From a virus, in the IMG/VR virus record IMGVR_UViG_3300043774_000177, positions 1 through 39,587 of that record: a stretch of DNA of 39,587 bases. The stretch is one strand, 5' to 3'. The notes under the pieces were generated by a model that saw nothing but the letters and a program-made list of their open reading frames with translations, did not search any database and was not told the DNA's origin. Positions 6,080 to 34,438 of this stretch are shown here, one piece after another (positions within the stretch are counted from its first letter, which is position 1; each line of letters opens with the position of its first letter). The translations under genes and the position numbers were made by a program.

Positions 6080-6371
6080 AGCCGCCATTATGACGGTAAA
6101 CCATATACCGCTGTCGATATTACAACGCGCCTGTGAGCAAGCCCGTCGTAACTGCGACCACCCTGCCAAGATTGTGCCGTTTATATGCAAGTTTGAACCT
6201 GAAGCCGTCCGCTGGGCCAATGACGCGATACGCTATGCACAGGCACAGGTCGATAACTTCAACGCGCCGCGCATCGCCAAGCAAGAGCCGGATTATATCA
6301 CAGCCGATGAACTGGCAGAACTGAAGAACGAATTATTGCAATCACTGAACACCAACAAAGGGATGAACTAA
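5871..6371 (+). CDS. Hypothetical replication-region protein, possible helicase loader
   Basis: The 166-aa protein has a ribosome site (AAAGGGG) before its ATG and overlaps the initiator gene by 209 bases in a different frame. It is mostly helical: KYRAALEALKAAQDKYR, PQEIITLLAPCLMLC, GMQEAERTAWYKAAIM, IPLSILQRACEQARRNCDHPAKIVPFI, then a charged tail ending DELAELKNELLQSLN. There is no Walker motif, so it is not a DnaC-type ATPase. Position directly after an O-like initiator suggests a lambda-P-like loader, but similarity is not evident and the function is open. Confidence 0.7.
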   Translation: MTSNQTLWELQNEQPDKHCTKYRAALEALKAAQDKYRQATPQEIITLLAPCLMLCAPSGMQEAERTAWYKAAIMTVNHIPLSILQRACEQARRNCDHPAKIVPFICKFEPEAVRWANDAIRYAQAQVDNFNAPRIAKQEPDYITADELAELKNELLQSLNTNKGMN

Positions 6372-6664
6372 TGATTTATGGCAACCTAATCCGCGAATGG
6401 GCAAAAGACCGCAACCTGATTGAAGGCAGCACGGTTCAGGCTCAATTCGTAAAGCTGATTGAAGAAATTGGTGAACTGGCCGAAGCTATCGCCAAGGGCA
6501 AAGACGAACAGTTTATGGATAGCATCGGTGACGCTTTCGTCGTGCTTACCATCTTGGCAGCGCAAAAGAATTTGGAAATTGAAGAATGCGTCGTTCACGC
6601 ATGGCACGAAATCAAAGACCGCAGGGGCCGCATGGTTGACGGGATTTTTGTCAAAGAGGAATAA
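6371..6664 (+). CDS. MazG-like nucleotide pyrophosphohydrolase
   Basis: The 97-aa protein carries the all-alpha NTP pyrophosphatase pattern: KLIEEIGELAEAIAKGK (the EExxE metal site) and MDSIGDAFVVLTILA (the second acidic site, D-x2-D-like), followed by CVVHAWHEIKDRRGRMVDG. Members hydrolyse NTPs or dNTPs to NMPs, and phage copies are thought to adjust nucleotide pools or (p)ppGpp signalling. The ATG follows the previous stop by one base overlap (TAATG). If the downstream dioxygenase cassette modifies DNA, this enzyme might alternatively clean the dNTP pool, but that link is speculative. Confidence 0.88.
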   Translation: MIYGNLIREWAKDRNLIEGSTVQAQFVKLIEEIGELAEAIAKGKDEQFMDSIGDAFVVLTILAAQKNLEIEECVVHAWHEIKDRRGRMVDGIFVKEE

Positions 6665-7395: not shown

Positions 7396-7653
7396 ATGAT
7401 AACCCCAACGCTAAACATGAACGGCTCAAGCGCAGATGACCTTATCCAGCCGCGCTTGAAGGCAATAAAGCTTATGAAAGGTGCTATTGAAGCGTTGCTG
7501 CAAGTCACACCAAACGGCAGGGATTACGCAAGCTATGAAAAATGCGTAGCTGATAGAAAAAAACACTACGACCGCATTGAAGTAATCCACGATATTTGGA
7601 ACGAAATTTATAGCGAAGCCATAGACATAAAAGAACAGGAGCAAGGGGCATGA
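7396..7653 (+). CDS. Conserved small phage protein, 85 aa
   Basis: The ATG is preceded by GGAGG 9 bases upstream, within the last codons of the previous gene. The protein starts TPTLNMNGSSADDLIQPRLKAIKLMKGAIEALLQVTPNGRDY and continues with a charged helical tail. The LNMNGSSADDLI and TPNGRDY segments recur, to my recollection, in small proteins of alphaproteobacterial and other phages of unknown role. It overlaps the next gene by four bases (ATGA), so translation is coupled. Confidence 0.78.
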   Translation: MITPTLNMNGSSADDLIQPRLKAIKLMKGAIEALLQVTPNGRDYASYEKCVADRKKHYDRIEVIHDIWNEIYSEAIDIKEQEQGA

Positions 7654-7892
7654 CGCCACGCGAAAGAAACCTCACCATCATTGACCACATCGCATCCGAA
7701 TATGGATATGATAGGCATGACGTTGTTGGCAAAAGGCGCTTTAAGGTGCTGGTTGAAATTCGTTACGAATGTATAAAGCTATTCCGTGAACGTGGTTACA
7801 GCACACCAGAAATCGGCAGGATTTTGAACCGTGACCACAGCACCATCGTTCACGCATTGCAAAAGATAGCAAAAATGGAAGCAGCAGAATGA
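7650..7892 (+). CDS. Free-standing DnaA domain IV-like protein
   Basis: The 80-aa protein consists almost entirely of the DNA-binding domain of DnaA. RRFKVLVEIRYECIKLFRERG leads into YSTPEIGRILNRDHSTIVHALQKI, matching the DnaA signature helix with the DHSTI core that contacts the DnaA box. The AAA+ domain is absent, so it cannot load helicase itself. It could bind DnaA boxes in host or phage DNA, titrating or blocking the host initiator, or act as a transcription factor. It is coupled by 4-base overlaps to both neighbours. The domain call is firm; the role is inference. Confidence 0.88.
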   Translation: MTPRERNLTIIDHIASEYGYDRHDVVGKRRFKVLVEIRYECIKLFRERGYSTPEIGRILNRDHSTIVHALQKIAKMEAAE

Positions 7893-8295: not shown

Positions 8296-8901
8296 ATGAG
8301 CAACCCCAAAATTGAACAGCGCCTTGTCGCTGACTTAATCCCATATGCTGCAAACAGCCGCACCCATTCCGATGCCCAAGTCGCGCAGATAGCGGCAAGC
8401 ATAAAAGAATTTGGATGGACAAGCCCCATTTTAATAGATGGCGATAACACTATCATTGCAGGGCATGGGCGCTTATTGGCCGCACGGAAGCTTGGCATGG
8501 AAGAAGTGCCAGCCATTATCCTTGACCACCTTAGCAAGCCACAGCAACGCGCATTGGTGATAGCCGATAACCAACTTGCTCTGAACGCAGGGTGGGACAT
8601 GGACATGCTGAAGGCAGAAATTGAGGGTTTGAGTGATAGCTTCGATTTGGATATTTTAGGCTTTTCTGAAATCGATTTAGAGAAGTTGATTAATGGTTTG
8701 GATTATAGCTTATTAGATGAAGATGACCTTGATGGGCAGCTAGATGAAATGGCCCGTGATGTTAAAAAAGCAATCCAGATTGAATTTGAAGCTGAATATT
8801 ATGCGGAAGCACAGGCCCTTGTGCAGTTTTGGCGCAGCCGTGGCGGTAATGTCGGAATGATGTTGATTGAAAAGCTGAAGGCAGAGAAAGAAAAGCTGTG
8901 A
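8296..8901 (+). CDS. ParB/Srx-like domain protein (DNA-modification-associated)
   Basis: Residues 8-80 match the ParB N-terminal fold: VADLIPYAANSRTHSDAQVAQIAASI, EFGWTSPILID and IIAGHGRLLAARKLG (GHGR at 56-59, the nucleotide-binding motif). It then has LSKPQQRALVIADNQLAL, an acidic middle, and a C-terminal module FEAEYYAEAQALVQFWRSRGGNVGMM. No HTH or ParA partner is present, so plasmid partition is unlikely. Phage ParB domains of this type usually accompany DNA methylases or terminases, and ParB-fold proteins can be CTPases or nucleases. It heads a coupled trio with a kinase and a TET/JBP-like dioxygenase. Confidence 0.87.
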   Translation: MSNPKIEQRLVADLIPYAANSRTHSDAQVAQIAASIKEFGWTSPILIDGDNTIIAGHGRLLAARKLGMEEVPAIILDHLSKPQQRALVIADNQLALNAGWDMDMLKAEIEGLSDSFDLDILGFSEIDLEKLINGLDYSLLDEDDLDGQLDEMARDVKKAIQIEFEAEYYAEAQALVQFWRSRGGNVGMMLIEKLKAEKEKL

Positions 8902-9380
8902 AGCAAGCAATTTTTTTAACTGGTGCTATGGGTTCGGGTAAAAGCACCTTGTTACGAAATGCGTCTTTTGTCAGTCAGGATGGCTATATATGCAGGTGCA
9001 AAGAATTTGATGTTTTGGGGCGAAACCAATTAGGCGCAGATAGCCTGTCAAACGATACAAAATCTATCGTATGGAACAGCCTGAACGCATATGAAGGCAA
9101 GCTGATTATCGCTGGCGAATATTACAGCAAGCAAAAGGATATAAACATTTTAGCTGATATGGGTTTCAGCTTGAAATGCGTTTTGCTTAAAGTGCCACGC
9201 GAAACGATTTATCAACGTGTGATAAAGCGGGGCGCAGGGGGCTGGAATGAAAAAACATATGCCACCAATCTAGTAAATAGGGTAAACTTTTTCAAAGCGT
9301 TTCGTGGGCCGAAAGAAATCTGGGCTAATTCAACGCTGGAAGAAGGCTTTGCCAACTTTGGCAAATTATGTGCGTTATGA
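8898..9380 (+). CDS. P-loop kinase, possible DNA-base or nucleotide kinase
   Basis: The 160-aa protein begins MKQAIFLTGAMGSGKSTLL, a Walker A motif at residues 9-17. A later segment, KCVLLKVPRETIYQRVIKRGAGG, resembles the LID/arginine region of small-molecule kinases. It starts at a GTG that overlaps the previous stop (GTGA). Established phage chemistry includes P-loop kinases that phosphorylate 5-hydroxymethyluracil within DNA before further substitution. Lying between a ParB-like protein and a base dioxygenase, this could be such a kinase. A deoxynucleoside monophosphate kinase is the main alternative. The fold is clear; the substrate is inferred. Confidence 0.82.
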   Translation: MKQAIFLTGAMGSGKSTLLRNASFVSQDGYICRCKEFDVLGRNQLGADSLSNDTKSIVWNSLNAYEGKLIIAGEYYSKQKDINILADMGFSLKCVLLKVPRETIYQRVIKRGAGGWNEKTYATNLVNRVNFFKAFRGPKEIWANSTLEEGFANFGKLCAL

Positions 9381-9402
9381 CATTAAAATCATGGTGGTGT
9401 GA

Positions 9403-10185
9403 ATGAAACATATTGAATTACAAAGTCGGCCGTATCCTGAAAAAGTTGGCGGCACTTGCGGAACTATTGAGCCGAACCTCACAGAAGATGCCATATTTTA
9501 CGAGGATGGCATCCCTGTTGGATTTTATATAAAGAACCTATCAAGCTATTCAGAAAAGGCCAGTAGCTACGCTGAACTTGCTGACAGGGAATTGCGAAGC
9601 CCAAGGGTTCCTAAATCCGAAATGCGTAGGAGCAGTGGCTTGCATGACGCGACATTCGACGTAAGGCAATATTCTGTAATTCTTGGAGGAGTGCCACCCA
9701 AGCCCCATATGCGCCGGAACTATCCAACTGTCTCCAGTGTTCACTCTGTTGGCAGCGCCGCAAATTTTATCAAGGCGATGCTTTTGCTATGCCGTGAAAG
9801 TGAAAACATTATTAAGGAAATCATGCCAGAGCAGTATGAATTCCAAAAGCTGGCTATTCAGCAAAACGCGCCGCCTGAATATCGTTTTGGGGAATTATTC
9901 ACCAGCAGCATTTCTAATTTCAATATTGCTGCAAATTATCACACAGATAATGCGAACCTTCGTGGCTGCGTAAATGTCATAATTGCAAAGCGGAAATCAT
10001 CAACTGGCGGCAACACCACTATTCCAGAATATGGCTTTACAGTAGATAGCTGCGATAATTCAATGCTGGTATACCCCGCTTGGAAAAGTCTGCACGGCGT
10101 AACACCTATCATCCCACTTGCTGAAGGCGGATATAGGAATAGCCTAGTTTTCTATCCTTTAAAATCTTTTGCAAAGTATGTTTGA
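9403..10185 (+). CDS. TET/JBP-family 2-oxoglutarate/Fe(II) dioxygenase (DNA base hydroxylase)
   Basis: The 260-aa protein carries a full Fe(II)/2OG site in the order seen in TET/JBP enzymes. These are FTSSISNFNIAANYHTDNAN (H180 and D182, preceded by the family's N-x-N-like strand), GGNTTIPEYGFTVDSCDNSMLVY, WKSLHGVTPI (H231) and GGYRNSLVFYPL (R245, the 2OG-binding position). The N-terminal half fits phage members lacking extra domains. TET oxidises 5-methylcytosine, JBP hydroxylates thymine, and some phage relatives start hypermodification. No DNA methylase is encoded here, so thymine or host-methylated cytosine is the likely substrate. The ribosome site is weak. The terminase begins 2 bases after its stop. 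Confidence 0.82.
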   Translation: MKHIELQSRPYPEKVGGTCGTIEPNLTEDAIFYEDGIPVGFYIKNLSSYSEKASSYAELADRELRSPRVPKSEMRRSSGLHDATFDVRQYSVILGGVPPKPHMRRNYPTVSSVHSVGSAANFIKAMLLLCRESENIIKEIMPEQYEFQKLAIQQNAPPEYRFGELFTSSISNFNIAANYHTDNANLRGCVNVIIAKRKSSTGGNTTIPEYGFTVDSCDNSMLVYPAWKSLHGVTPIIPLAEGGYRNSLVFYPLKSFAKYV

Positions 10186-10187
10186 TT

Positions 10188-10577
10188 ATGGAAGCTAAAC
10201 TGACCGCAAAGCAGGAGGCCTTCTGCCAAGCAATAGCCGACGGCATGGGGCAAGCAGACGCTTACCGCACCGCTTATGACGCTGAAGGGATGAAGGATAA
10301 CACCATTTATCCGCTTGCATCTAAGTTGATGAACAACAGCAAGGTTGCCACAAGGGTTGCTGAATTGAAAGCACAGGTTGCTGAAAAGCAATTATGGACA
10401 CGCGAAATGTCCGTAAAGGGCTTAATGAGCGCCTATAGGATTGCGCTTGAAGCCAAGGCATCGACGGGCATGACGGCAGCGGTCAAAGAACTAAACATCA
10501 TGCACGGCTATAACGAACCGACCAAGCTGGCAGTCAATATGCACTTCAAGCCTATCACGGATGAAGATTGGCTTTGA
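10188..10577 (+). CDS. terS: Terminase small subunit
   Basis: The 129-aa protein matches the Terminase_2 type small subunits: LTAKQEAFCQAIADGMGQADAYRTAY followed by ASKLMNNSKVATRVAEL and AVKELNIMHGYNEPTK. These recognise the packaging site and regulate the large subunit. The start was placed at the ATG 2 bases after the dioxygenase stop; a TTG two codons earlier is possible. It overlaps the large subunit gene by 10 bases, so the pair is coupled. Confidence 0.92.
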   Translation: MEAKLTAKQEAFCQAIADGMGQADAYRTAYDAEGMKDNTIYPLASKLMNNSKVATRVAELKAQVAEKQLWTREMSVKGLMSAYRIALEAKASTGMTAAVKELNIMHGYNEPTKLAVNMHFKPITDEDWL

Positions 10578-11821
10578 CCTTCACGCCAAGCCAAAGCGAT
10601 TTTATTTACAGCACAGAGCCATTCCCTGCGTTCGTCGGTGGTTTTGGTTCTGGGAAGACTGCGGCTGGTATTGCAAGGCTAATGCGCCTGAAGCGATACT
10701 GCCCTTATCAGGATGTCGCATATTACCTTCCGACCTATCCGCTGATTGAAGACATTGCCTTCCAACGCTTTCCTGCTTTGTTTGAGCGCAACGGCATCCC
10801 TTATAAGCTGAACCAGCAAAAGGCTGTGCTGGAAACGGAACTGGGCCGCATCATCTTTCGCAACATGGAACAGCCTGACCGCATCGTCGGTTACGAAGTT
10901 GCTCACAGCGTTGTGGATGAACTTGATACACTGCCCATCGAAAAGGCACGGGCCGTCTGGAACAAGATTATCGCCCGTAACCGCCAGAAGGCATTTACTG
11001 TCGGTGGTAAGCCCGTTCGCAATACTGTCGGCGTTGCCACCACGCCTGAAGGTTTCCGCTTCGTCTATGACCGCTGGGTTAAGAACAAGGCTGATGGCTA
11101 TGCGCTGTATAAGGCCAAGACATCCGACAATGCCGCCAACCTTCCACCTGATTACATCCAGAACTTGCAAAACAGCTACAGCGCCAGCTTGCTTGCCGCA
11201 TATCTTGATGGCGAATTTGTCAACCTGACCGCTGGTAGCATATATCCAGAGTTTGACCGCAAGCTTAACATTACTTTTGCAACCATTGAACAGCGCGAAC
11301 CACTGCACATCGGTGTTGACTTTAACGTCAACAATATGAGCGCCGTCGTGTGCGTGATACGCAATGGCGACCCGCTGGCACTGGATGAATTATCGGGTGT
11401 GCGCGATACGCCAACATTGATACGCATATTGCAGGAACGATACGCTGGGCATCAAATCACAGTTTACCCTGACGCATCTGGCGGGGCCACAAAAAGCATT
11501 AACGCCAGCCTGTCCGATTTAACGCTTTTGCGCTCCGCTGGTTTAACGGTATTGGCAAATAGTAAAAACCCTGCCGTCAAGGATAGAATTATTGCGGTCA
11601 ACCAAATGATTTGCAATCAAGGCAAACGAAGGTTGTTGGTCAATCCTGATAAATGCCCTAATGTTATTGAAGGTTTGGAGCGCCAAGCATACGCGAAAAA
11701 TGGTGAGCCAGATAAATCAAGCGGCTTTGACCATTTGAATGATGCTATCGGCTATTTTATTGCATATAAATATGCTATCGGTAGAGGAACGGTATCCTTT
11801 GCTCAAATTTCTGGGGTGTAA
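10568..11821 (+). CDS. terL: Terminase large subunit
   Basis: The 417-aa protein has the ATPase and nuclease parts of phage packaging motors. Walker A is GGFGSGKT (24-31), Walker B is HSVVDELD (about 113-120), and ATTPEG serves as the coupling motif. The RNase-H-like nuclease follows with GVDFNVNN (D251), YPDASGG (D302) and FDHLNDAIGY (D388/D392). The start appears to be TTG at 10568 inside the small-subunit gene. Type of packaging (headful or cos) cannot be told from the sequence alone. The circularly closed assembly is consistent with headful packaging and circular permutation. Confidence 0.95.
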   Translation: MALTFTPSQSDFIYSTEPFPAFVGGFGSGKTAAGIARLMRLKRYCPYQDVAYYLPTYPLIEDIAFQRFPALFERNGIPYKLNQQKAVLETELGRIIFRNMEQPDRIVGYEVAHSVVDELDTLPIEKARAVWNKIIARNRQKAFTVGGKPVRNTVGVATTPEGFRFVYDRWVKNKADGYALYKAKTSDNAANLPPDYIQNLQNSYSASLLAAYLDGEFVNLTAGSIYPEFDRKLNITFATIEQREPLHIGVDFNVNNMSAVVCVIRNGDPLALDELSGVRDTPTLIRILQERYAGHQITVYPDASGGATKSINASLSDLTLLRSAGLTVLANSKNPAVKDRIIAVNQMICNQGKRRLLVNPDKCPNVIEGLERQAYAKNGEPDKSSGFDHLNDAIGYFIAYKYAIGRGTVSFAQISGV

Positions 11822-33165: not shown

Positions 33166-33395
33166 TGAACGCCACCACACTTTTCACCATCCTTGGTTTT
33201 GTTATGACCGCCCTGACTTTTGTTGGGGCGTTGATAACCGTCTGGGTCAATCTAACCAACAAACTGACGCTTCTTGAAGCGCGACTTGGCTTTGGTGATG
33301 AAAAATTCCAAGCCATCGACGAAAAGTTTAAAGAGGTAATGATGCACCTTCGCCGCATTGAAGACAAACTGGATAATAAGGCTGACAGACCATGA
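33162..33395 (+). CDS. Membrane coiled-coil protein (XhlA/holin-associated-like), 77 aa
   Basis: The protein has one transmembrane segment, LFTILGFVMTALTFVGALITVWV, followed by a coiled coil (KLTLLEARLGFGDEKFQAIDEKFKEVMMHLRRIEDKLDNK). This layout resembles XhlA-like holin partners and other lysis accessory proteins. It is coupled to the fibre gene upstream by ATGA and to the secreted Asn-rich protein downstream by 4 bases. It opens the lysis/secretion region. Confidence 0.75.
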   Translation: MMNATTLFTILGFVMTALTFVGALITVWVNLTNKLTLLEARLGFGDEKFQAIDEKFKEVMMHLRRIEDKLDNKADRP

Positions 33396-34438
33396 AGAAA
33401 TTTGTGTTTGGTTTTATCGCGCTGGCTGCATCATCATCGGTGGTGCTGGCACAAACTGTATCCGTAGCGCCTACGGAATACATCTATAACACGACCACGA
33501 CCAGCACATCTGATAATACCAACACGACCACCAGCACGAACACGAACAACAATAACAACACTTCGACCAGCACATCCACGAACACGAATAACAACAACAA
33601 TACGTCGGACAGCACATCGGTCAGCACCAACACCAACACCAATAACAATTTCAACACCAGCACCAGCACATCGGTCAACACGAACAACAACGTGAACGCC
33701 AGCACAAGCACTTCGCTGAACACAAACAACAACAACAACGTCAGCACTTCGACGAATACCAACATCAATCAAAATTCTGGCACGATGACCAATATCAACC
33801 AGAACACCAACATCAATTCTGGCACGATGACGAACATCAACCAGAATACGAACGTCAACACATCTGACGCCACAAACCGCAATTTCAACACGGATGTTAG
33901 CAACAGCACTGTCAATCAGACGGTCAACAGCAACAGCAATAGCAACAGCACCGTGAACACGAATAACACGAATAACGATACCAGCACGATTAACCAAACG
34001 ACGAACAGCAACAGCAACAACGTCAATCAGAACAACAACGTCAACGTCAGCGACAGCAAAAGCTACAGCGAAAGCGTTAATCGTCAGATAATCGACCAGA
34101 ACATCAAGTCGCCGCCACCCAGCGCCATCGCGCCATCTATGATGTCATACAGCCAAGACCTTTGCACCACGGGGCAATCTGGCGCTGTTCAGACGCAAAT
34201 CATCGGCTTATCGGCTGGCCGCACAGTGCGCGACCAAAACTGCGAACGTATGAAGCTATCCAAGACGCTTTACGATATGGGTATGCGCGTGGCTGCTGTG
34301 AGCCTTCTATGCCAAGATACCCGTGTTTTTAGGGCAATGGAAATGGCTGGCACACCCTGCCCGTTCATGGGCGCAATCGGTGAAGCTGCAACAGCGGCAT
34401 GGGAAGAAAATGCTGACCGCCGCCCTGACGCAGAATAA
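33392..34438 (+). CDS. Secreted Asn/Thr/Ser-rich repeat protein with Cys-containing C-terminal domain
   Basis: The 348-aa protein has a clear signal peptide (MKKFVFGFIALAASSSVVLA, cleavage before Q-T). Residues about 35-240 are almost wholly N, T, S with some V, I, D and Q, as degenerate repeats such as TSTNTNNNNN and GTMTNINQN. The C-terminal ~100 residues form a conserved-looking domain: PPPSAIAPSMMSYSQDLC, then GLSAGRTVRDQNCERMKLSKTLYDMGMRVAAVSLLCQD and GTPCPFMGAIGEA, with four Cys able to form disulfides outside the cytoplasm. I recall similar C-terminal domains in phages of aquatic bacteria, with no known function. Confidence 0.85.
   Translation: MKKFVFGFIALAASSSVVLAQTVSVAPTEYIYNTTTTSTSDNTNTTTSTNTNNNNNTSTSTSTNTNNNNNTSDSTSVSTNTNTNNNFNTSTSTSVNTNNNVNASTSTSLNTNNNNNVSTSTNTNINQNSGTMTNINQNTNINSGTMTNINQNTNVNTSDATNRNFNTDVSNSTVNQTVNSNSNSNSTVNTNNTNNDTSTINQTTNSNSNNVNQNNNVNVSDSKSYSESVNRQIIDQNIKSPPPSAIAPSMMSYSQDLCTTGQSGAVQTQIIGLSAGRTVRDQNCERMKLSKTLYDMGMRVAAVSLLCQDTRVFRAMEMAGTPCPFMGAIGEAATAAWEENADRRPDAE

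Follow-up and report, generated by a model that had tools for sequence, protein, structure and literature searches.

The analyzed stretch of DNA (the window) comprises all 39,587 nucleotides of the IMG/VR virus record IMGVR_UViG_3300043774_000177. It carries an exact end repeat of 127 bases and thus most likely represents a complete, circularly assembled genome, so that the absence of a gene family is informative within the limits of profile sensitivity. The genes for a ParB-like protein, a P-loop kinase and a TET/JBP-type dioxygenase (hereafter Tet) follow each other in series, and the terminase genes are located directly 3' of them (Table 1). The GTG start codon of the kinase gene overlaps the TGA stop codon of the ParB gene in the sequence GTGA, and the ATG of the terminase small subunit gene lies 2 bases past the Tet stop codon. 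A recheck of all coordinates confirmed this arrangement, as well as the Walker A motif of the kinase and the four active-site residues of the dioxygenase, on which an original prediction of a DNA-base hypermodification cassette had been based. Elsewhere in the window, the early region encodes a MazG-type nucleotide pyrophosphohydrolase (6371-6664). We further observed a free-standing DnaA C-terminal helix-turn-helix domain of 80 aa (7650-7892) and, near the right end, a protein (33392-34438) with a long N/T/S-rich low-complexity stretch, for which the sole match is an unassigned PHROG.

Table 1. Features of the cassette and its right-hand neighbours in the window.
Feature	Position	Strand	Evidence
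ParB/Srx-fold protein, 201 aa, fixed partner of Tet	8296..8901	+	Pfam ParB_N, PHROG matches, synteny
ParB C-terminal tail, residues 137-201 (DYSLLD...VKKAIQIEF...G)	8704..8898	+	Column conservation, 127 ParBs
P-loop kinase (KinA), 160 aa, predicted 5-hydroxymethyl-pyrimidine DNA kinase, swap-slot occupant	8898..9380	+	
Kinase Walker A GAMGSGKST, residues 9-17	8922..8948	+	G9, G14, K15 invariant in 17 kinases
Kinase G-A-D-S-L (G-x-D-x-L) motif, common to PF18751-type DNA kinases	9033..9047	+	G46, D48, L50 invariant in 17 kinases
TET/JBP-family 2-oxoglutarate/Fe(II) dioxygenase, 260 aa, predicted in-DNA thymine hydroxylase	9403..10185	+	Pfam Tet_JBP, AlphaFold2, Foldseek
Dioxygenase HxD iron ligands H180-T-D182	9940..9948	+	H180, D182 invariant in 51 sequences
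Dioxygenase third iron ligand H231	10093..10095	+	Invariant in 51 sequences
Dioxygenase R245, predicted 2-oxoglutarate contact	10135..10137	+	Invariant in 51 sequences
Terminase small subunit, right-hand neighbour	10188..10577	+	Pfam Terminase_2, E 3e-6
Terminase large subunit	10568..11821	+	Pfam Terminase_6N/6C

The dioxygenase matched the Pfam family Tet_JBP (PF12851) with an E-value of 4e-9 (36.4 bits versus a cut-off of 34.9), and its iron ligands and R245 are conserved throughout the alignment, in which the relatives are 51-68% identical to the window Tet. Sequence searches of the PDB with Tet, with a Tet profile and with the kinase yielded nothing useful, and therefore the folds were compared instead. 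The AlphaFold2 model of Tet (pLDDT 93.5, pTM 0.90) was clear in this respect: a structural placement outside the TET/JBP clade had been named beforehand as an argument against the cassette, but the first 25 Foldseek matches in the PDB are all TET2, CcTet, CMD1 or NgTET1 (E 1e-10 to 6e-8), and FTO comes only after these. Judged by its modelled fold, the window dioxygenase is a member of the TET/JBP family, with a predicted activity on 5-methylcytosine (5mC) or thymine in DNA. The label 'queuine tRNA-ribosyltransferase' that PHROGs attaches to the protein (phrog_6059) was rejected, as the fold is that of TET and the TGT-type DpdA constitutes a different family (PMC6884629). The same wrong label is found on Tet/JBP genes in RefSeq and PHROGs (e.g. 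L082:20001-20786, L083:17129-17914 and L084:810-1766; L numbers denote the collected loci) and in many phage records. In Caulobacter phage Cr30 (L195) a Tet-like gene is labelled 'SNF2 DNA repair protein' and a match to ADDT (amino-acid:DNA transferase; E 2e-54) lies about 2 kb downstream.

The kinase gave only sub-threshold Pfam matches, to AAA_33 and AAA_18. Since PF18751 (Ploopntkinase3) was absent from its matches and the cut-off of that family was not passed, we do not file the protein as a PF18751 member. Close sequence relatives in IMG/VR are restricted to near-copies of the same phage, and Lactobacillus phages gave weak matches; in the near-copies L003 and L004 the kinase shows few changes, silent ones being at least as common as others in these small counts. 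When the kinase served as a single-sequence query against all open reading frames of 189 loci, nearly all of which had been fetched via Tet, it recovered besides the near-copies only the kinases of L112, L096, L097 and L021 (E 7.5e-12 to 5e-10). These are encoded directly upstream of Tet, with an ADDT gene between ParB and the kinase (the ADDT match in L096 is partial). The window kinase is 29-30% identical to these ADDT-linked relatives and 18-21% to PF18751-type kinases. Moreover, a profile of this clade (KinA) aligned with 95% probability to KinB, the remaining Tet-linked kinases of the PF18751 type, and in an alignment of 17 kinases Walker A, the G-x-D-x-L motif and additional invariant positions are common to all. 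In the PDB the modelled structure (pLDDT 86) is matched best by polynucleotide kinases, and among its matches in BFVD are the SP10 (E 3e-6, TMq 0.68) and PhiW-14 (E 2.5e-5, TMq 0.67) 5-hmdU DNA kinases.

The genomic context also connects the kinase with ADDT or an enzyme that makes 5hmU, as the sequence relatives are located between ADDT and Tet and the window kinase itself accompanies Tet. The structural matches to SP10 and PhiW-14, the shared motifs and the ADDT-linked relatives thus support the proposed role of a modified-base DNA kinase, more specifically that of a predicted 5-hydroxymethyl-pyrimidine DNA kinase, as far as fold and distant homology go. It is very unlikely that we are dealing with an ordinary nucleotide or nucleoside kinase that is unconnected to the chemistry of Tet. 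The fold is indeed also near that of NMP and deoxynucleoside kinases and the matches to named families stay below threshold, but the viral structure matches include 5-hmdU DNA kinases, all sequence relatives reside between ADDT and Tet, and other phages have a kinase of another clade in this position. Two genes annotated as 'terminase small subunit', gp3 of KayaCho (L084:1802-2377, E 1e-110) and gp5 of Acadian (L088:3022-3588, E 3e-61), match the PF18751 kinase and are probably misannotated DNA kinases.

The ParB protein was recognized by ParB_N (PF02195; E 4e-6, 27.2 bits versus a cut-off of 26.3) and by two PHROGs, phrog_620 (E 2e-55) and phrog_498 (E 2e-51). The latter represents ParB fused to a DNA methyltransferase, and the N-terminal domain of the window protein is common to such fusions in other phages. 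This distribution suggests that the domain assists DNA-modifying enzymes. The C-terminal tail is conserved among the ParBs of Tet cassettes and could possibly provide a docking segment that contacts Tet. As a cassette-specific probe the tail gave no match in the named phages, even in cyanophages that bear the cassette, and the tail search is therefore no test.

Three Tet queries were used to collect relatives from IMG/VR. Once duplicate contigs had been removed, 138 remained, which encode 114 distinct Tet proteins, and each was assigned to a class with profiles of the genes flanking Tet. ParB is encoded upstream of Tet in 128 of the 138, the other 10 being cut by the contig end, which places the gene set far from chance. 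The accompanying gene varies: it encodes a glycosyltransferase in 82 contigs (TAGT, PF20691, in 18 of the 25 members scanned), an FkbM methyltransferase in 21, a kinase only in 15 and a kinase with ADDT in 11, and it is missing in 9. The kinase-only class includes L054, where a FAD oxidoreductase lies beside the kinase and the upstream side is cut by the contig end, and four contigs that belong to the lineage of the window; in five contigs of the ADDT class (L036, L037, L046, L075 and L157) extra genes follow Tet. L080 and L186 were rejected as empty slots as both hold glycosyltransferases (recognized by BLAST clustering and by reading of the sequence, respectively), and L096 was rejected as kinase-only because of its partial upstream ADDT match. 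Rare additions are a sulfotransferase (L077:2315-2878), a nucleotidyltransferase-kinase fusion (L039:4127-5923) and the FAD-dependent oxidoreductase of L054 (2-721). The FkbM gene is found in the slot or after Tet in some 20 contigs (e.g. L082:19303-20004, L083:16431-17132 and L196:4449-5147), including cultured Prochlorococcus and Pelagibacter phages, and its presence in the cassette predicts an O-methylated hydroxymethyl base. In L036 (2690-6720), L046 and L075 two tandem ParB genes precede Tet, and GATase, GNAT acetyltransferase, ADDT and kinase genes follow it.

The Tet tree requires 46 changes of the slot by fine class (45 before two label corrections; minimum 6, about 77 for shuffled labels) and 32 by chemistry class (minimum 4, about 52 for shuffled labels), counts that are to be taken as estimates since many branches are weak. 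The DNA alignments of close pairs constitute stronger evidence. The loci L023 and L018 share 92.7% identity as far as the ParB stop codon and 92.6% from the Tet start codon onward; between these points one carries a kinase gene and the other a glycosyltransferase gene. Two types of glycosyltransferase were exchanged between L149 and L150 (95-97% identical), a kinase and a glycosyltransferase between L138 and L133 and between L141 and L081 (both pairs about 90%), and the FkbM gene is present in one and absent from the other of L022 and L024 (about 89%). ParB travels with Tet in the swap pairs, and the breakpoints in the aligned pairs coincide with the ParB stop and the Tet start or lie no more than about a dozen bases away from them. 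ParB and Tet form a fixed pair that flanks an interchangeable slot, occupied in the window by the kinase. The original reading of the cassette was supported by the analysis, but it had overlooked this slot.

The combined data make it probable that the three genes constitute a cassette for post-replicative base hypermodification, in which Tet places a hydroxyl on thymine in DNA and the kinase adds a phosphate to it, the phosphate possibly being the final group. ParB would bind or load on the phage DNA as the fixed partner of Tet, and Tet would act on thymine within the polymer, hydroxylating its 5-methyl group so that 5-hydroxymethyluracil arises. The kinase would then phosphorylate the hydroxyl to give 5-phosphomethyluracil, and the phosphate, if final, would shield the DNA from restriction just before packaging. 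Considering that the kinase resides in an exchangeable slot, the relatives would equip the same hydroxymethyl base with a sugar, a methyl group or an amino acid. In animals TET enzymes start the removal of 5mC, and an analogous phage enzyme could erase host methylation marks and build no hypermodified base. Such a role is highly improbable here, however, as the kinase, glycosyltransferase, methyltransferase or ADDT partners fit building on the hydroxymethyl group and no DNA glycosylase was seen among the window ORFs scanned.

Neither ADDT (PF18724) nor aGPT-PPlase3 (PF18746) gave a match in the complete window, in KayaCho or in Cinna, and at Pfam sensitivity ADDT is thus absent from the whole window genome. 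KayaCho encodes ParB, Tet and a PF18751 kinase, followed by terminase, Cinna has the same gene order, and both lack ADDT and a C5 methylase. Kinase-only cassettes of the KinB type were found in L023 and nine other contigs, in which no ADDT was detected among the fragments searched. Since no ADDT or other recognizable following enzyme is encoded by the complete genome, the modification may end with the phosphate, and 5-phosphomethyluracil may be the finished base. A kinase-only system would already be useful, as phosphorylation of 5hmdU alone suffices to block many restriction enzymes on SP8 DNA (PMC7653180).

The phosphate could also be an intermediate that is displaced by a host enzyme or an unrecognized phage enzyme, in the way that ADDT exchanges it for an amino acid in SP10, PhiW-14 and M6. 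This seems rather unlikely. In its favour, the kinase families adjoin ADDT, and usually GATase, in L021, L097, L112, L078, L043, L036, L046, L075, Tonitrus and LittleMunchkin, several small early ORFs of the window lack a function assignment, and a divergent or host-encoded enzyme could take over the follow-on step. Against it stand the lack of PF18724 and PF18746 matches in the window, KayaCho and Cinna, the occurrence of kinase-only cassettes with a different kinase clade in ten further contigs, and the size of the unassigned early ORFs scanned (at most 166 aa), which is small for ADDT. The phosphomethyl end product suggested originally may thus hold, although a later enzyme could still act on it. 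We tentatively put forward, as a possibility somewhat short of probable, the combined proposal that 5-phosphomethyluracil, made by Tet and kinase with nothing added later, is the finished base of a class of phages and that these can alter the chemistry of their DNA coat through the swap slot of the ParB-Tet core, in which one gene is exchanged at precise gene boundaries.

The fold alone does not single out thymine as the substrate, considering that TET2, NgTET1 and CMD1 act on 5mC. The HxDxxN motif of the active site was dropped as a test for thymine versus cytosine, as TET2 has the same Asn. We therefore turned to the gene content of the whole records behind the loci, in which the C5 methylase family (PF00145) was sought. 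It is absent from the window, and it was found in 1 of 39 records (the window included, as a negative), in 4 of 35 viral records (one full length and three short partial matches) and in 0 of 14, absence counts that are limited by the mostly fragmentary nature of the IMG/VR contigs. Among the 87 other viral or phage records, a full or substantial match was present in 2 and a short partial match in 3; the contigs of L015 and L151 carry the methylase. None of the 10 cultured Tet phages has it (MED4-117, MED4-184, KayaCho, Tonitrus, Lilmac1015, Cinna, HTVC112P, LittleMunchkin, Cr30 and Acadian). The thymidylate-synthase family (PF00303, dUMP hydroxymethylase type) was found in 0 of 39 records, again including the window. 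The lack of both a methylase and a hydroxymethylase that had been noted earlier thus applies to the entire genome within the sensitivity of Pfam. ADDT, GATase and FAD oxidoreductase, which belong to known 5hmdU pathways, occur as same-slot partners in the relatives. In addition, the gene set of Tonitrus was read by its authors as a putative thymidine hypermodification system (PMC11955845). The scarcity of the C5 methylase, the 5hmdU-pathway partners and the reading of Tonitrus together favour thymine, on comparative evidence, over the alternative of host-methylated cytosine that the original prediction had left beside it.

That alternative, in which the substrate would be 5mC made by a host methylase and the products 5hmC and its phosphate, appears quite unlikely. 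Characterized TET enzymes act on 5mC, and phage TET enzymes reportedly do so too (work by Burke et al. in 2021). TAGT glycosyltransferases take part in 5hmC systems, L015 and L151 have a C5 methylase on their contigs, and 5mC could be supplied by the host. However, the methylase is missing in the window, in all ten cultured Tet phages and in the great majority of contigs, and dependence on the methylase of each host would leave few sites modified. Moreover, the ADDT and 5hmdU-kinase partners are those of thymidine pathways (PMC11955845).

The window was compared with known systems. The actinobacteriophages Tonitrus and LittleMunchkin likewise combine ParB, Tet and kinase near terminase, but they carry ADDT in the order ParB-Tet-ADDT-kinase, and their Tet is about 29-31% identical to the window Tet over about 65% of its length. 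The mycobacteriophage KayaCho and the Microbacterium phage Cinna have, like the window, a kinase-only set of ParB, Tet and kinase followed by terminase, and neither ADDT nor C5 methylase; their kinase, however, is of the PF18751 clade and located after Tet. Thymidine hypermodification in SP10, PhiW-14, M6 and ViI proceeds from 5hmdUMP via a 5-hmdU DNA kinase to ADDT. The window would share with these phages a P-loop kinase that phosphorylates a 5-hydroxymethyl pyrimidine in DNA, as predicted from the matches of the kinase model to SP10 and PhiW-14. It differs from them in that the hydroxymethyl group would arise in the polymer by Tet and not before replication by dUMP hydroxymethylase, and in that matches to ADDT and the thymidylate-synthase family are missing. 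In the phage 5mC-TET-glycosyltransferase systems, reportedly treated by Burke et al. in 2021 and Iyer et al. in 2013, a TET/JBP enzyme also makes the hydroxymethyl handle, and TAGT (PF20691) fills the slot of many window relatives, but a C5 methylase is missing in the window and in most relatives. Finally, the kinetoplastid JBP1 and JBP2 (base J) resemble the window in the hydroxylation of thymine in DNA by a TET/JBP enzyme, here predicted, with subsequent decoration of the hydroxyl, yet the JBP systems add a sugar and lack a ParB partner, whereas for the window a phosphate is predicted.

The association of phage TET/JBP genes with ParB, kinases and glycosyltransferases is already known from comparative-genomic work, and it is reflected in Pfam names such as TET-Associated Glycosyltransferase and in PMC11955845. 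The swap slot and the kinase-only form, in contrast, look new: no description of a single-gene exchange between ParB and Tet or of a kinase-only class was found in the literature covered, and priority is uncertain.

The analysis corrects two kinds of database label, namely that of Tet as queuine tRNA-ribosyltransferase and that of a DNA kinase as terminase small subunit, and the cassettes offer candidate in-DNA thymine hydroxylases, DNA kinases, glycosyltransferases and methyltransferases. If the proposal is true, the charged base 5-phosphomethyluracil would be a finished natural DNA modification, for which KayaCho and Cinna are testable as cultured phages, and the change of one gene would turn thymine in DNA into any of several shielding bases and thereby allow a fast escape from modification-specific restriction enzymes.
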